Shown one piece after another: positions 1 to 42,856 of a stretch of 64,000 bases of DNA. Below the pieces are notes generated by a model, which saw nothing but the letters and a program-made list of their open reading frames with translations, did not search any database and had not been told where the DNA came from. The position numbers were made by a program, and so were the translations under genes. The DNA lies in NCBI GenBank assembly GCA_015060625.1, contig SUYC01000007.1:62001-126000 (forward strand), written 5' to 3'. The first letter of the stretch is position 1. Every line of letters starts with the position of its first letter. The DNA comes from Xylanibacter ruminicola (lineage in GTDB: Bacteria; Bacteroidota; Bacteroidia; Bacteroidales; Bacteroidaceae).

Positions 1-600
1 GTGGCGCTGCTTTATCAGCCAGCATCGTTTGCACCTATCTGTAGCTATGCTATTCGTGTGAATCCCGTTGAAGGCATGCGCCCCACGCGAGATATTCTCT
101 ATACTTGTGGTGAGACAGTTTCGGGCGACACACTACATGTGTTTGTGGTGCATCAACCCAGTAAATTTGGAGGTGATAAACACAGTCGGCCATTCAGACA
201 AGCTGTGGCTGACCGACTGTGTTTGTCGCTTGATTCTATCAGAGCTATCTCACCCGATGCGAAACTGATAGTAGCTGGTGACTTTAATGATGGTGCCATT
301 AGCCAGAGCCTGCAACAATATGAGCACCACGGTTTGGTGAATCTAACCAAGCAGGCTCGGGGTGAGAATGGTGTTCGTGGCACCTATCGCTATAAAGGTG
401 ATTGGGAAAGCATCGATCATATCTTGGGCAGTACTTCTGTCTGTAATAAAGTGGATAGCGCTTTTATTCATGCACCTCAGTTCTTGTTAGAAGAGGATGC
501 CAAATATGGTGGCTTTCGTGCTCGAAGAACGTATATCGGTCCTCGCTATCAAGGTGGATTTAGCGACCACCTGCCATTAGTTGTGCGATTTATTTTCTAA
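1..600 (+). CDS. Endonuclease/exonuclease/phosphatase family protein, 5' truncated
   Basis: C-terminal part of a metal-dependent EEP-fold hydrolase. It shows the family's ordered motifs: 'VAGDFND' (residues ~91-97), 'SIDHILGS' (~137) and the terminal 'SDHLPLV' with the Asp-His pair. The reading frame is open to base 1 and the GTG there is only the window edge. The N-terminal half, which should carry the catalytic Asn and Glu, is missing, so substrate cannot be judged (nuclease, sphingomyelinase-like and phosphatase members all exist). In Bacteroidales such proteins are often secreted or lipid-anchored, but the signal region is outside the window. Its stop overlaps the stop of the convergent MFS gene by 11 bp. 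Confidence 0.85.
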   Translation: MALLYQPASFAPICSYAIRVNPVEGMRPTRDILYTCGETVSGDTLHVFVVHQPSKFGGDKHSRPFRQAVADRLCLSLDSIRAISPDAKLIVAGDFNDGAISQSLQQYEHHGLVNLTKQARGENGVRGTYRYKGDWESIDHILGSTSVCNKVDSAFIHAPQFLLEEDAKYGGFRARRTYIGPRYQGGFSDHLPLVVRFIF

Positions 601-1978
601 TGTTCGGCAACTGCAAACCATAGTTCTTACGCTTGTCAACAATCAGCATTGTAACTGCTGTTATAGCTGCCCCTAATGCTGTAAAACCAAAGATAAGCAT
701 AGAAGTGGTATAAGTTGGATCTGTTTCATTAGCTATTCCTACACACATAGGAATTACTGCACGCCCGAAATTTTGGATAAAGAAAATCATAGAGTAGGCT
801 GTGCCTAAACACTTTAGTGGTATAATCTTGGGAACGCAAGGCCACAAGGCGGCTGGTGCCAATGAATAGCCAATGCTGAGTGTTACCATCAAAGCAATGG
901 CGAAACCTCCACCGTCCCCTCCAAAAGAGGGAGGAATAGGCAGTGAAAAACCGAAATGAACGGCTGTAAGCATAAGTGCGCCTGTTATCACTAAGGTAAC
1001 GCCTTTGCCATAGCGATCATAAATCAAACCGAACAGGGGGGTCATCAGAATTGTGCCAAAAGGGGCTATCGACGAAAAGAAACCTGCGATATCAGGATCA
1101 ACGCCGTATTTCATCACCATCAGTTTGGTTGAGAATTTAAGGAATGGTGAAACGGCAGAATAGAACAGAACGCAGAATAATGTAATGAGCCAAAAACCTG
1201 GATTACGAAGGGTAACAAGAATATCGGAAAAATGGAATTCATCTCCAGTATGCCTAGAATCACTAGTCTTACTAGAATTACTAGTACTACTAGGCCTACT
1301 TTCATCTAACTTACGATCCATGATACAGAATACCAAAAATGCGAGCAGACCGATGCACAAGAATGCCAGTGAGATTAATAGTGGCATAGAGAGTGTGTAG
1401 TGGCGGGCGATGGGAGCAGAGATGCTAAGGGCAGCGGCTGTACCCAAACGAGCCATGGCTAACTGTATGCCCATAGCCAAGGCCAGCTCATGACCGGTAA
1501 ACCAACGTACCATTGCTTTTGAAACGCTGATGCCCGTCATCTCATAGCCTACACCGAATATCGCAAATCCTAAGGATGCCCAAACAGCCGAAGCAGGCAA
1601 CTGATAATCAAGGAATGCAATGGGCTCATTTCCAAATTCGGTAGTAACGGCATAATACTTGATAAGTGTGCCGATTGCCATCAGGCTGCAGGCTAACGTG
1701 CCCGTAAAGCGGATGCCCATCTTGTCGAGAATCAGTCCCGAGAAGAAAAGCATCAATAAAAAAACATTGATAAAACTACCTGCACCAGAGAAGAATCCAT
1801 AGTCGGCAGGTGTCCAACCCAAACCGCCTTGTTCCTTGGGCAGTTCGAGCAGGCTTTCGAGTGGTGACATGACGTCATTAACGAAATAGCCCATCATCAT
1901 GGCTGTTGCCACGATGATGAGCACTGTCCATCTCGCAAAAGGCGAGTCGTTAAGTTGTTGACGGATGACCGTTGTCAT
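590..1978 (-). CDS. MFS transporter with CTAG-array linker
   Basis: A 462-residue major facilitator superfamily transporter with about 12 hydrophobic segments in two six-helix halves. Substrate is not inferable. It is clearly paralogous to the MFS gene at 3481-5103 (shared stretches around 'ILDKMGVRFT', 'GITVSKAMVRWFTGHELALAMG' and 'LWPCVPKIIP'). The central cytoplasmic loop after 'MDRKLDE' holds a Ser/Thr-rich insert (SRPSSTSNSSKTSDSRHTG) encoded by five CTAG words at exact 9-bp spacing. The paralog has a different, shorter acidic loop there. It is the last gene of a leftward operon, three bases downstream of the DUF1846 gene. The start is ATG at 1976-1978. Confidence 0.9.
   Translation of the reverse strand: MTTVIRQQLNDSPFARWTVLIIVATAMMMGYFVNDVMSPLESLLELPKEQGGLGWTPADYGFFSGAGSFINVFLLMLFFSGLILDKMGIRFTGTLACSLMAIGTLIKYYAVTTEFGNEPIAFLDYQLPASAVWASLGFAIFGVGYEMTGISVSKAMVRWFTGHELALAMGIQLAMARLGTAAALSISAPIARHYTLSMPLLISLAFLCIGLLAFLVFCIMDRKLDESRPSSTSNSSKTSDSRHTGDEFHFSDILVTLRNPGFWLITLFCVLFYSAVSPFLKFSTKLMVMKYGVDPDIAGFFSSIAPFGTILMTPLFGLIYDRYGKGVTLVITGALMLTAVHFGFSLPIPPSFGGDGGGFAIALMVTLSIGYSLAPAALWPCVPKIIPLKCLGTAYSMIFFIQNFGRAVIPMCVGIANETDPTYTTSMLIFGFTALGAAITAVTMLIVDKRKNYGLQLPNIRK
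1254..1293 (-). repeat. 9-bp CTAG array in the MFS linker
   Basis: CTAG begins at 1254, 1263, 1272, 1281 and 1290, five out of five positions at a 9-bp step. On the coding strand the units read cCTAGtagt, aCTAGtaat, tCTAGtaag, aCTAGtgat, tCTAGgcat. Four bases are invariant and the other five vary. The codon frame is NCT AGN NNN, giving [P/T/S]-[S/R]-X tripeptides. See also 37665-37731 and 42354-42402. Confidence 0.9.
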
Positions 1979-32971: not shown

Positions 32972-34003
32972 ATGAGCATCGAAAAAAATAACTCAAAAAA
33001 ACAGTGGCGACTACCTGCAGAATGGGAGCCACAATCTATGGTGCAGCTAACATGGCCGCATGCAAAAACAGACTGGGCACCCATGCTCGATGAAATCACT
33101 GAGACTTACAAGGAAATGGCTGCCGCCATCTCAAGTCGCGAGGATCTTTTGGTCGTCGCCCCCGAAAGCTTTGACTCAACTCTCACTTCTCACCTCTCAC
33201 TTCTCACCTCGAACGACACTTGGGCGCGCGACCATGGTTTCATCACATTGATCGATGATCAAGGCAATGCCCGTTTATTGGATTTCTGTTTCAATGGTTG
33301 GGGTGAAAAGTTCGCCGCCAATCTTGATAATGCCATTAATAGGCATCTATTCGATGAGGGTAAAGTTCAGGGCGAATATGTAGATTGCTTGGATTTCGTG
33401 CTCGAAGGGGGCTCGATTGAGAGTGATGGTCAGGGTACCGTCTTTACCACCTCTTGCTGTTTGTTGGCTCCTCATCGTAATCAGCCGATGACGAAAGCTG
33501 AGATCGAGGCACGACTGAAGCGCGACCTTTGTGCTGAACGTGTGGTTTGGATCGACTATGGGCATCTGGTTGGTGATGATACCGATGGGCATATTGACAC
33601 CTTGGTACGCATTGCACCCAACGACACCTTATTATATATAGGGTGTGATGATGAGACTGATGAGCATTACGAAGATTTGAAGAAGATGGAGGAACAGCTC
33701 AAAACCTTCCGTACCATGGCTGGTAAACCATATAATTTGGTTAAGTTGCCTATGTCACGACCAATTTTTGATGAAGGCGAACGACTGCCTGCCACCTATG
33801 CAAATTATTTGATTATGAATGGTGCTGTTTTGGTGCCTACTTATAACCAGCCTGATCTTGATGCTGAGGCTATGAGATTGATAGGTGAGGCTCACGAGGG
33901 TAGAGAGGTTGTAGGCATCGATTGTAGAAGCATTATTAAGCAGCATGGTTCACTCCATTGTTGCACGATGCAATACCCAGCAGTAGTGAATAGTGAAAAG
34001 TGA
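32972..34003 (+). CDS. aguA: Agmatine deiminase
   Basis: A 343-residue member of the peptidyl-arginine-deiminase (PAD_porph)/agmatine deiminase family, converting agmatine to N-carbamoylputrescine. 'WRLPAEWEPQSMVQLTWPHAKTDW' at the N-terminus, 'NDTWARDHGFITL' (~residue 87), 'EGGSIESDGQGTVFTT', and the catalytic Cys330 in 'GSLHCCTMQYP' near the end are all present. The segment just before 'NDTWARDHG' ('STLTSHLSLLTS') is encoded by a heptanucleotide repeat (TCTCACY x4) and is probably an insert. A second, different heptamer repeat overlaps the stop codon. The next gene, aguB, catalyses the following step. Confidence 0.93.
   Translation: MSIEKNNSKKQWRLPAEWEPQSMVQLTWPHAKTDWAPMLDEITETYKEMAAAISSREDLLVVAPESFDSTLTSHLSLLTSNDTWARDHGFITLIDDQGNARLLDFCFNGWGEKFAANLDNAINRHLFDEGKVQGEYVDCLDFVLEGGSIESDGQGTVFTTSCCLLAPHRNQPMTKAEIEARLKRDLCAERVVWIDYGHLVGDDTDGHIDTLVRIAPNDTLLYIGCDDETDEHYEDLKKMEEQLKTFRTMAGKPYNLVKLPMSRPIFDEGERLPATYANYLIMNGAVLVPTYNQPDLDAEAMRLIGEAHEGREVVGIDCRSIIKQHGSLHCCTMQYPAVVNSEK
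33181..33208 (+). repeat. Heptamer repeat inside aguA
   Basis: TCTCACT, TCTCACC, TCTCACT, TCTCACC: four 7-bp units in a row with only the last base alternating (equivalently a 14-bp unit twice). It is in coding sequence just upstream of the codons for the conserved 'NDTWARDHG'. Confidence 0.9.
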
Positions 34004-34897: not shown

Positions 34898-34939
34898 AGG
34901 TAAAAAGGTAAAAAAGTAAAAAGGTAAAAGGATAAAAAA
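34896..34939 (+). repeat. GGTAAAAA tandem repeat between aguB and glutamine synthetase
   Basis: About five units of a 7-8-bp word (GGTAAAAA, GGTAAAAA, AGTAAAAA, GGTAAAA, GGATAAAA) fill most of the 51-bp gap. No -7 box is visible there, so glnN may be co-transcribed with aguAB or use a promoter disguised by the repeat. Confidence 0.85.
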
Positions 34940-34948
34940 TATAAGACA

Positions 34949-37156: not shown

Positions 37157-39154
37157 ATGAAGAAACTCTTAACTATATGGATGCTCATGGTTGCTGTTGT
37201 ATCAGCCAAGGCCCAAATGATGGATCCAGTGCACTTCACCACTCAGATAAAGGATCTGAAGAATGGTGAGGCAGAACTGGTATTTAAGGCAACGATTGAT
37301 GCTGGTTGGCATGTCTATTCTACCGGCTTGGGCAATGATGGTCCTATTTCGGCCACGTTCAATTCTGTAAAGATGGATGGCGCTCAGCCAGTTGGAAAAT
37401 TGCAGGCTCGTGGTAAGGAAATCAAACAGCATGATAAACTCTTCGGGATGGAAGTGCGGTATTTTGAGAACGCAGTCACTTTTGTACAGAAGATTAAGTT
37501 TACCAAAGCCAAGTATGATATCGAGTGCTATGTGGAGTATGGCGCTTGTAATGATCAGGCTTGTCTGCCGCCATCAGAGGCATCACTGAAAGCCAGCGGA
37601 ACTGCTAGCCAGTCTCAGGCTGAGGTCCTGCCTGAGCAGCAGCCGACATCGGCTGCTGATACAACTAGCCAAACTAGCACAACTAGCCCCACTAGTAATA
37701 CTAGCCTGGCTAGAACTGATAGCCAGGCTAGCAGCTTGCTTTGGGCGCCAGTCATCTCTGAGCTTCAGACTTTTAATGGCAACTCAGCTCCTACCGAGAA
37801 TATGGCCCTGTGGCTGATATTTATCGAGGGTTTATTAGGTGGTTTTATCGCCTTGTTCACACCTTGTGTATGGCCCATCATACCGATGACGGTGTCGTTC
37901 TTTCTTAAACGTAATAAGGATCGTGCCAAGGCTATCCGCGAGGCCACTACTTATGGTGCAAGCATCGTGGTTATCTATGTGCTGTTAGGTTTGGCAGTAA
38001 CCTTGCTGTTTGGTGCAAGTGCGCTGAATGCTTTGGCCACCAATGCAGTATTCAACATTTTCTTCTGTTTGTTGTTGGTGGTATTTGCTGCTTCGTTCTT
38101 AGGAGCATTCGAAATCACCTTACCTGCATCATGGTCAACCAAGATTGACGAGAAATCTGAGAGTACCACTGGTTTGCTGAGCATTTTCCTGATGGCCTTT
38201 ACTTTGGCTTTGGTGTCGTTCTCTTGTACAGGTCCTATCATTGGTTTCCTGCTGGTGGCTGTTTCAACTCAAGGCAGTATCGTGGCACCAACCGTTGGCA
38301 TGTTGGGCTTTGCCATCGCTTTGGCCATTCCCTTCACCTTGTTTGCCATGTTCCCGTCGTTACTCAAGTCGGCTCCCAAGTCGGGTGGTTGGATGAATGC
38401 GATTAAGGTAACACTTGGTTTCATTGAATTAGCTTTTGCACTCAAGTTCCTGAGTGTGGCCGACTTGGCATACGGTTGGCATATTCTTGATCGTGAGGTG
38501 TTCTTGTCGTTGTGGATTGTAATCTTTGGTTTGCTGGGTGCTTATCTGCTGGGATGGCTCAAGTTCCCGCACGACGATGATAAGCATCGTACCAATGTGC
38601 CGCAGTTCTTCTTGGCTATGGCATCGTTGGCTTTTACCATTTATATGATTCCTGGTTTGTGGGGCGCACCTTTGAAAGCTATATCTGCTTTCGCTCCTCC
38701 GATGAGTACACAAGACTTTAATCTGCAGAAAACGGTGACCGAAGCCAAATACAAGGATTACGAACAGGGCATGGCTGCAGCCAAGGCTGAGCATAAGCCG
38801 GTTATCATCGACTTTACTGGATTTGGTTGTGTAAACTGCCGTAAGATGGAAGCTGCGGTGTGGAGTGATCCTCAGGTCGCTGATATCCTGAATAATAAGT
38901 ATATCTTGATATCACTTTATGTAGATGATAAGACTCCATTGGCCGAACCTGTCGAGGTGGAGGAGAACGGACAGAAACGTACCTTGCGTACTGTGGGTGA
39001 TAAGTGGAGTTATCTGCAGCGCGTCAAGTTCGGTGCTAATGCCCAACCGTTCTATGTGCTATTAAACGAAGAAGGCCACCCGCTAGCGGGCAGCCGTTCT
39101 TACGATGAGGATATTCAAGGTTATATTGAATTCTTGAATAAAGGTCTGAAATAA
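37157..39154 (+). CDS. DsbD-like thiol:disulfide interchange protein with CTAG-array linker
   Basis: A 665-residue protein. It has a signal peptide (1-20), a DsbD-alpha-like periplasmic domain (~25-145) with the Cys131/Cys136 pair ('YGACNDQACLPPSEA'), a low-complexity linker (~147-195), a membrane domain of about 8 helices (~205-510) with the conserved cysteines in 'FTPCVWPIIPM' and 'SFSCTGPIIG', and a C-terminal thioredoxin-like domain with Cys558-x-x-Cys561 ('FGCVNCRK'). It should carry electrons from cytoplasmic thioredoxin to periplasmic thiols. The linker is encoded by seven CTAG words in eight 9-bp steps. It starts 15 bp after glnN. Confidence 0.92.
   Translation: MKKLLTIWMLMVAVVSAKAQMMDPVHFTTQIKDLKNGEAELVFKATIDAGWHVYSTGLGNDGPISATFNSVKMDGAQPVGKLQARGKEIKQHDKLFGMEVRYFENAVTFVQKIKFTKAKYDIECYVEYGACNDQACLPPSEASLKASGTASQSQAEVLPEQQPTSAADTTSQTSTTSPTSNTSLARTDSQASSLLWAPVISELQTFNGNSAPTENMALWLIFIEGLLGGFIALFTPCVWPIIPMTVSFFLKRNKDRAKAIREATTYGASIVVIYVLLGLAVTLLFGASALNALATNAVFNIFFCLLLVVFAASFLGAFEITLPASWSTKIDEKSESTTGLLSIFLMAFTLALVSFSCTGPIIGFLLVAVSTQGSIVAPTVGMLGFAIALAIPFTLFAMFPSLLKSAPKSGGWMNAIKVTLGFIELAFALKFLSVADLAYGWHILDREVFLSLWIVIFGLLGAYLLGWLKFPHDDDKHRTNVPQFFLAMASLAFTIYMIPGLWGAPLKAISAFAPPMSTQDFNLQKTVTEAKYKDYEQGMAAAKAEHKPVIIDFTGFGCVNCRKMEAAVWSDPQVADILNNKYILISLYVDDKTPLAEPVEVEENGQKRTLRTVGDKWSYLQRVKFGANAQPFYVLLNEEGHPLAGSRSYDEDIQGYIEFLNKGLK
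37665..37731 (+). repeat. 9-bp CTAG array in the DsbD linker
   Basis: CTAG begins at 37665, 37674, 37683, 37692, 37701, 37710 and 37728; at 37719 the word is ATAG. The step is exactly 9 bp. The units are aCTAGccaa, aCTAGcaca, aCTAGcccc, aCTAGtaat, aCTAGcctg, gCTAGaact, gATAGccag, gCTAGcagc. The frame is NCT AGN NNN as in the other two arrays. A further CTAG at 37605 has the same codon frame but is not in 9-bp register. Confidence 0.92.
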
Positions 39155-41983: not shown

Positions 41984-42856
41984 ATGCATACAAAAGAAGA
42001 AAAAATGCAGGCTTTCGGTCGTTTTCTTGACGTTTTAGACGCGTTAAGAGCTAATTGTCCATGGGACAAAAAACAAACTAACGAGAGTCTCCGTCCCAAT
42101 ACCATCGAAGAGACGTATGAACTCTGCGATGCACTCATCAAGAATGATATTCCTGATATTTGTAAGGAGTTAGGCGATGTGCTGTTGCATATCTGTTTCT
42201 ATGCCAAGATCGCCGAGGAAAAAGCGCAGTTTGATATGGCTGACGTATGTAATGCGCTTACTCGCAAGATGATAACCCGCCATCCGCATGTTTATCACCC
42301 CTCACAGATTGAGGCCGAGAACCCCAAACCGCTGCCATACGTTCCTGGTGATTCTAGCCAGTCAGGCCCAGCTAGTACTTCTAGCTCGGCTAGAGTATCT
42401 AGCGTAACTCAAGTTCTAGAAAACTGGGAACAGATTAAGTTAAAGGAAAAAGATGGTAATAAGTCGGTGTTGTCGGGGGTGCCCGATGCCCTGCCTTCGC
42501 TCATTAAAGCTTATCGCATTCAAGATAAGGCACGCAATGTTGGTTTCGACTGGGAAGATCGTCAGGATGTGTGGAAAAAAGTACATGAGGAGCTGGCTGA
42601 ATTAGAGGTGGAACTGAATAAGGAAGATAAAGAAAAATCAACTGAGGAGTTGGGTGATTTCTTGTTCAGCGTGATTAATGCAGCCCGATTGTATAAACTC
42701 AATCCTGATAATGCCCTTGAAAAGACAAACCGAAAATTTATCAATCGGTTTAACTATATCGAGGCGCATAGCATCAAGATTGGTAAACCGCTTAAGGATA
42801 TGACCTTAGGCGAGATGGATGCTCTTTGGAATGAAGCAAAAGAAAAGTTGAAATAA
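41984..42856 (+). CDS. mazG: Nucleoside triphosphate pyrophosphohydrolase MazG with CTAG-array linker
   Basis: A 290-residue all-alpha NTP pyrophosphatase hydrolysing (d)NTPs to NMPs. It has two MazG domains: the first with '[28 protein letters not shown]...[19 protein letters not shown]' (E-x-x-E and E-x-x-D metal motifs), the second with '[37 protein letters not shown]'. The domains are joined by a linker lengthened by '[22 protein letters not shown]' (residues ~124-145), which E. coli-type MazG lacks. The linker is encoded by a CTAG 9-bp array. It is followed one base later by a lipoprotein gene. Confidence 0.95.
42354..42402 (+). repeat. 9-bp CTAG array in the MazG linker
   Basis: CTAG begins at 42354, 42372, 42381, 42390 and 42399; the missing step at 42363 reads CAGG and the next step at 42408 reads CTCA. 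The units are tCTAGccag, tCAGGccca, gCTAGtact, tCTAGctcg, gCTAGagta, tCTAGcgta. The codon frame is NCT AGN NNN. A further CTAG at 42416 is one base out of register. Confidence 0.88.

Follow-up and report, generated by a model that had tools for sequence, protein, structure and literature searches.

In REPtrons, the gene for the TnpA_REP protein (RAYT) adjoins its cognate REPs and most REPs are dispersed genome-wide; the class of REP follows the protein, recognition shows tetranucleotide specificity, and the sites are mostly non-promoter intergenic ones (PMC8266576). Heptamer repeats such as TAACTGA, described from Beggiatoaceae, Cyanobacteria and some Bacteroidetes, are short, of fixed step, mostly intergenic near gene ends, and patchy in distribution (PMC4679880). 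Reading frames can also receive repeats, as is the case for Rickettsia palindromic elements and PARCELs, which are inserted in frame into housekeeping and other protein genes (PMC2996958).

The 64-kb stretch of DNA analysed here (the window) carries CTAG at 9-bp steps in three genes. A sequence-only reading had placed arrays there, and all three were found at those positions with the unit counts given, namely 5/5, 7/8 and 5/6 (Table 1). In heptamer repeats the whole unit is repeated, whereas here four to seven bases are fixed, the rest are free, and there is a linked gene. Rickettsia elements and PARCELs differ in being long palindromes or 75-nt repeats without a 9-bp core register. No description of these arrays, or of the "four helix bundle suffix" proteins treated below, was found in the open-licence literature, in line with the earlier statement that none was known.

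Table 1. CTAG arrays of the window, their host genes and neighbouring CTAG copies
Feature	Position	Strand	CTAG at register positions	Details
Array 1	1254..1293 (starts 1254, 1263, 1272, 1281, 1290)	+	5/5, 9-bp steps	MFS transporter central loop, aa 229-242 of 462; frame NCT AGN
Host of array 1, MFS transporter gene	590..1978	-		MFS_1 PF07690
Lone CTAG 5' of array 2	37605..37608	+		Same linker, out of 9-bp register
Array 2	37665..37731	+	7/8	DsbD_N/DsbD_TM linker; miss is ATAG at 37719
Host of array 2, DsbD-like protein-disulfide reductase gene	37157..39154	+		
Array 3	42354..42402	+	5/6	Linker of two MazG domains; miss is CAGG at 42363
CTAG 3' of array 3	42416..42419	+		Leu-Glu codon pair, 17 bp past last unit
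Host of array 3, MazG nucleoside triphosphate pyrophosphohydrolase gene	41984..42856	+		

All three host genes, including the minus-strand MFS gene, use the frame NCT AGN NNN. CTAG is absent from the DsbD linker in 11 of the 11 orthologues compared. The MazG genes of two other genomes (G013 and G018) contain degenerate units in the same register as array 3, and at the codon pair downstream of that array the window reads GTT CTA GAA versus GTC TTG in close relatives. Further degenerate short-step repeats were noted in the window at 33175-33210 and 34900-34940, of the types CTCANNN (7-bp step) and GTAAAANN (8-bp step).

The CTAG arrays at 9-bp steps are real and far beyond chance. The window holds 59 copies of CTAG against 183 expected from dinucleotide shuffles, and CTAG is therefore depleted, as had been stated earlier for bacteria in general; 17 of these 59 copies fall within the three 9-bp registers. 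When all 256 tetramers were scanned at periods 5-30, CTAG with period 9 was the sole combination in the window with three independent runs of at least four diverse units. The genome of the window has 39 overlapping four-unit CTAG matches versus none for the reversed pattern GATC, and the control patterns GATC and GGCC were near zero in genome counts. Among the array loci fetched, neighbouring CTAGs are mostly 9 bp apart, with a lesser peak at 18. CTAG units with one mismatch occur at +/-9 from array edges in 36% of cases in the genome of the window and 25% in other genomes, versus about 5% at most other offsets. The fixed core with variable spacers that had been reported from the window holds for the whole genome, where 64 of 77 spacers are different and nearly random, and cores are more conserved than spacers.

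Chance, Ser/Thr linker codon bias or ordinary tandem-repeat slippage might be invoked, as many arrays lie in tolerant Ser/Thr linkers and one genome (G009) has runs of identical units in some arrays. Codon bias had been named at the outset as what could overturn the reading, and it was not borne out: permuting synonymous codons within the window genes gave two arrays of at least four units in 2000 shuffles, against three observed. This result and the tetramer and period scan rule out models of codon bias and slippage; together with the conserved cores, the near-zero controls, and the use of two reading frames and of intergenic sites (see below), they leave this explanation with virtually no credence.

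In the genome of the window, arrays also occur in the genes for AlaRS (two), PurL (two), UvrA, ThiE, SprA, an ABC-F ATPase and others. Four-unit CTAG arrays are present in 33 of 60 genomes of the same genus, each of the 33 with between 1 and 189 matches; we take the genus to be Prevotella as broadly defined by GTDB. Strong arrays were also found in unrelated families of the order (G235, G381, G269, G367, G213). Among the matches listed in a scan of contigs, most came from rumen or gut Bacteroidales, including Prevotella sp. tc2-28, P. conceptionensis and Prevotellamassilia timonensis, and a few from Victivallales, Lentisphaeria and Kiritimatiellae. The 9-bp CTAG arrays found in gut bacteria outside Bacteroidota (L076 in Verrucomicrobia UBA3783; L051, L088 and L091 in Victivallales) reach up to 42 register positions and have more repeated units. 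In the nearly complete genome G010, most CTAG arrays lie within about 100 kb (C3:1599601-1703153; L349-L352), in successive gaps between housekeeping genes, beside CTCAACT heptamer arrays and GCCCGTCC inverted repeats. Depletion of CTAG was considered as a marker of array-bearing genomes and set aside, since outside arrays there is no clear difference. A viral origin was likewise rejected, since the matches in viral contigs mostly resemble repetitive sequence with few unit types.

The arrays, whose nature the sequence-only reading had left undecided, are linked to genes of family TIGR04258, the "four helix bundle suffix" proteins. The first lead came from the f80/g82 family, in which the sole match to five CTAGs lies directly upstream of a TIGR04258 gene in three species; the L035 protein scores 73 bits against a curated cut-off of 40. 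At these loci (L035-L037) the five CTAGs form a 14-bp stem near the start codon in the three species, a possible autoregulatory element. A hairpin function for the arrays in general was rejected, a long stem being found only there. When 59 TIGR04258 genes were fetched regardless of arrays, 40 had a typed array within 220 nt, versus 18 of 617 control ORFs (odds ratio 70, Fisher 6e-36), the array types having been defined after the flanks were seen. The arrays abut the gene, often beginning with its stop codon, and lie on both sides of it at four loci (L066, L073, L089, L464). Two genomes (G005 and G015) have CTAG matches at 9-bp steps sufficient for one array only, and that array is sited at the TIGR04258 gene. 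A forward test in P. nigrescens (WP_004367454.1 in NZ_CP082843.1) found four CTAGs at 9-bp steps about 45 nt past the stop codon, with the near-misses CCAG and CTAC at the array edges. The same record, a complete one, has a dispersed three-unit CTAG array at 227745, and the 203 kb of it that were read contain only 24 CTAGs, seven of them in arrays.

Co-occurrence of gene and arrays at the level of genomes is moderate. TIGR04258 exceeds its cut-off in 35 of the 60 genomes of the genus, in 24 of the 33 with 9-bp CTAG arrays versus 11 of the 27 without them (p = 0.018). No TIGR04258 gene was found in the genome of the window or in eight other array-bearing genomes, among them the nearly complete G010, and G429, which has more CCGG arrays than any other genome, yielded no gene flanked by CCGG. 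The arrays of the window's genome may accordingly be orphans. Its TIGR04258 gene may be gone, a possibility with which the frequent near-misses at the array edges agree; alternatively, the gene could sit in the 3% that is missing or have diverged too far. No TIGR04258 gene was found in the window, and the link was therefore invisible from the window alone.

Gene and array sit together, and the type of array follows the lineage of the protein, not the genome. On the protein tree, 12 changes account for array type, and none of 1000 label shuffles needed fewer than 20. CTAG and CTATAG cores, at steps of 9 or 10, are paired with GGI(K/R)ERM and coiled-coil tails, CTTAAAGAC with short GGFSERM tails, and 8-bp arrays (TCGA, AACG) with zinc-ribbon tails in 8 of 8 cases, versus 0 of 45 for other tails. 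That CTAG is the core of the element, as first claimed, holds for the window; elsewhere it is one of several lineage-specific cores, which include CCGG, CTATAG, CTTAAAG and the 8-bp TCGA/AACG class. Array type differs between paralogs of a single genome (G421 has four paralogs, each of its own type; G008, G006 and G437 have three each), so the composition of the genome cannot explain the type. In at least three genomes the core in a housekeeping gene is the one that flanks the genome's own TIGR04258 gene: CTAG at both places in G007, an ATAGA array in PurL with CTATAG at the gene in G452, and CTCCGAG in AlaRS with CTCNGAG at the gene in G023. The AlaRS core of G420 resembles the flank of its GGFSERM gene. 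A 7-bp class (TCAATTG, CTCTAAC) is also present, with no gene tied to it. The zinc-ribbon subfamily beside the 8-bp arrays (L491-L493, L499, L503, L505, L510, L517) has tails of the form CPxCGKPMIKRMAKKG...FWSCSxYPxC. Five other TIGR04258 proteins (L468, L474, L478, L495, L511) have C-terminal tails made up of low-complexity repeats, NQS, NPN or TPT for example, as though translation of the gene had run on into the adjacent array.

Lineage-specific cores recall DNA uptake sequences, which are likewise short motifs found genome-wide, coding sequence included. An uptake-like drive, in which array fragments would be preferentially taken up and arrays accumulate, could account for dialect-like differences in core and for the presence of arrays in housekeeping genes, both of which resemble the biology of uptake sequences (PMC3630211, PMC2397512). 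The arrays, however, are periodic, clustered and limited to tens of loci, with the core depleted as a singleton, instead of forming thousands of isolated sites, and several cores occur per genome, each beside its own gene; an uptake drive is, on these grounds, highly improbable.

Some IS families use CTAG as their target. A transposon of this kind could leave footprints, either the 4-bp CTAG duplicated together with a few bases from its ends or a 9-bp duplication produced by cuts at CT^AG, and these would yield a fixed step, a palindromic core and 9-bp steps that preserve the reading frame. Against this, spacers are nearly random, none of the arrays inspected contained a recognisable IS, and the TIGR04258 link and the other cores would be left unexplained, which makes such footprints equally hard to accept. 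Cutting and religation of 9-mers by microhomology was rejected along with them, the spacers being too diverse.

The TIGR04258 protein of P. timonensis is modelled by AlphaFold (mean pLDDT 85) as a four-helix bundle followed by a long helix, 173-248, which starts in a basic stretch, GGIKERMHRARTGFR. The fold matches the intervening-sequence protein (IVP) of X. campestris (2GSC, five chains) and an S23 protein of Bacteroides (2RLD) with Foldseek probability of about 1 and weak E-values; for 2GSC the TM-score is 0.73-0.79 by target length, at probability 1.0 and E 0.05, the shared fold being a four-helix bundle. By sequence, Pfam 23S_rRNA_IVP PF05635 gives E 4e-7 and 30.6 bits, just under the cut-off of 33.8, and TIGR02436 gives 20.8 bits against a cut-off of 24. 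TIGR04258 proteins share with the S23/23S rRNA IVP family the N-terminal four-helix fold, with sequence similarity short of the family cut-offs, but they add the suffix and a zipper-like or zinc-ribbon tail, lie outside rRNA genes and are tied to DNA arrays. The tail of L066 gives leucine-zipper or bZIP-like matches (HALZ, E 2e-6; bZIP_1, E 0.05). These models suggest an oligomer that may present basic-zipper or zinc-ribbon tails to regularly spaced cores. No catalytic domain was recognised, and no HuH (Y1 transposase-like) nuclease was found, Pfam, NCBIfam and fold searches giving only the S23/IVP four-helix domain. No homologue was found in phages or viral contigs.

Among the loci examined, intergenic arrays outnumber genic ones. 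Of 108 intergenic arrays, 86 lie in tandem gaps, 18 in convergent and four in divergent gaps, although divergent gaps make up a quarter of intergenic bases, and array starts tend to coincide with a stop codon or come just past it. The inter-domain linkers that the sequence-only reading had given as the sites are one class of site; intergenic sites after stop codons are far commoner per base. Its single frame, NCT AGN, which the three window genes share, gives way elsewhere to both frames free of the TAG stop (36 in NCT.AGN, 20 in CTA.GNN). One array in the latter frame, in contig C24 of the window's genome (L341, 1997-2719), encodes the hydrophobic stretch of an apparent signal peptide of a TPR protein (LVKLVKLAGLARLALLAALV). 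Between genes, step length varies from 8 to 12 bp, with 8-, 10- and 12-bp steps beside 9; within genes, the step of 9 preserves the reading frame. Relative to the gene, spacers are found in either orientation. The arrays constitute an element at the level of DNA, and the earlier proposal of a nucleotide-level element kept in tolerant coding positions is upheld by the use of both non-stop frames and of intergenic sites. A role in RNA, in which the IVP-like protein would bind repeated CUAG in transcripts and tune mRNA stability or translation, would suit arrays that lie in coding sequence or just past stops and are rare in divergent gaps, and S23/IVP relatives are associated, as the family name tells, with rRNA intervening sequences. 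We consider it very unlikely, since spacers in both orientations and mostly palindromic cores fit double-stranded DNA better.

Orthologous genes bear on the gain of arrays at tolerant sites. In AlaRS, five genomes carry CTAG arrays in one and the same loop, which in their relatives, the closest (G448) among them, still has its short ancestral form. In further genomes this loop, or another one, is occupied by arrays of CCGG, CTTAAGGAC or CTCCGAG or by hairpin elements. At orthologous sites, one species may have CTAG where another has CCGG; G429 is rich in CCGG arrays. At the first PurL site, the window's genome reads SLDKLDNLALLEYLERV versus SQDKIDEYLDRV in G418, a net growth of 15 nt. Its five CTAGs lie exactly 9 bp apart in spite of this growth because flanking codons changed (CAG to CTA, ATT to CTA and CTC to CTA), with D, K, E, Y and R retained, which points to selection on the core or its directed maintenance. 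The same AlaRS and PurL loops have acquired arrays more than once, and some units arose by substitution under protein constraint. The MazG gene of G013, a genome without an intact four-unit array, reads CTAG, CTAA, CTAG, CTAA, CTAC in register and resembles an array that has decayed. In Prevotella AlaRS and PurL, the same tolerant sites accommodate several unrelated types of repeat; in-frame long hairpin elements of the CCCCCGAGGGGG type and 7-bp arrays (TCAATTG, CTCTAAC) occur in the AlaRS loops of L400 (G433) and L407 (G444) and in the PurL of L441 (G430) and L431 (G418).

Such constrained substitutions could also be expected of host-beneficial binding sites of TIGR04258 proteins, forming a regulon or serving the nucleoid, that arose by slippage and point mutation and were kept by selection with no spreading activity. 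Cores are conserved and spacers variable, in-register CTAGs came from substitution with conserved residues retained, and an array adjoining the gene fits autoregulation. On the other hand, host genes and array number (0 to 189 matches) vary widely between close species, no gene class is obviously shared, and the avoidance of divergent promoter gaps is unusual for regulators. We regard this alternative as unlikely.

The arrays are probably the dispersed cognate DNA repeats of TIGR04258 proteins, in a REPtron-like arrangement for which binding, the mechanism of spreading and function are inferred. As in REPtrons, repeats lie beside the gene and are dispersed through the genome, their class follows the protein, and most sites are intergenic and away from promoters; tetranucleotide specificity would be common to both. 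The differences are that no HuH nuclease domain was found in TIGR04258, that the units measure 8-10 bp with variable spacers in open arrays, whereas REPs are single 20-40 nt hairpins tagged with GTAG/CGTC, and that in-frame copies lie inside essential genes. A TIGR04258 protein has an S23/23S-rRNA-IVP-like four-helix domain, to which a basic helix continuing as a coiled coil is joined; one subfamily has a zinc ribbon instead. Within about 200 nt of its gene there is usually a tandem array in which a short core, in most array types a palindrome, recurs at a constant step of 8, 9 or 10 bp. It may bind the tandem cores at about one per helical turn. Its presence would cause arrays to start at positions that tolerate them, in many cases a C-TAG stop codon or surface loop, and then to grow, the cores being kept as spacers drift. 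Where it is lost, arrays would decay, and the genome of the window may be at that stage. The arrangement would amount to a REPtron-like pairing of gene and genome-wide repeats built on a non-transposase protein.

A further step can be proposed tentatively, namely a self-propagating repeat system in which oligomeric DNA-binding proteins of the S23/IVP fold would write and maintain their own tandem arrays chromosome-wide, essential genes included in frame, with one specificity per paralog and with step and core set by the tail.

These results suggest an undescribed kind of repeat-spreading system in Prevotella-related gut bacteria. If this reading is right, the arrays would explain lineage-specific Ser/Thr- or Leu-rich inserts in the AlaRS, PurL, UvrA, MazG and DsbD of Prevotella-like gut bacteria. 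The widespread, little-studied family TIGR04258, with its S23/IVP relatives, would have a proposed role, and REPtrons would be joined by a second kind of system that pairs a gene with dispersed repeats and that, in this case, edits essential proteins without loss of frame. A DNA-recognition code would be readable from core and step against the protein tail, and could be tested in cultured strains.
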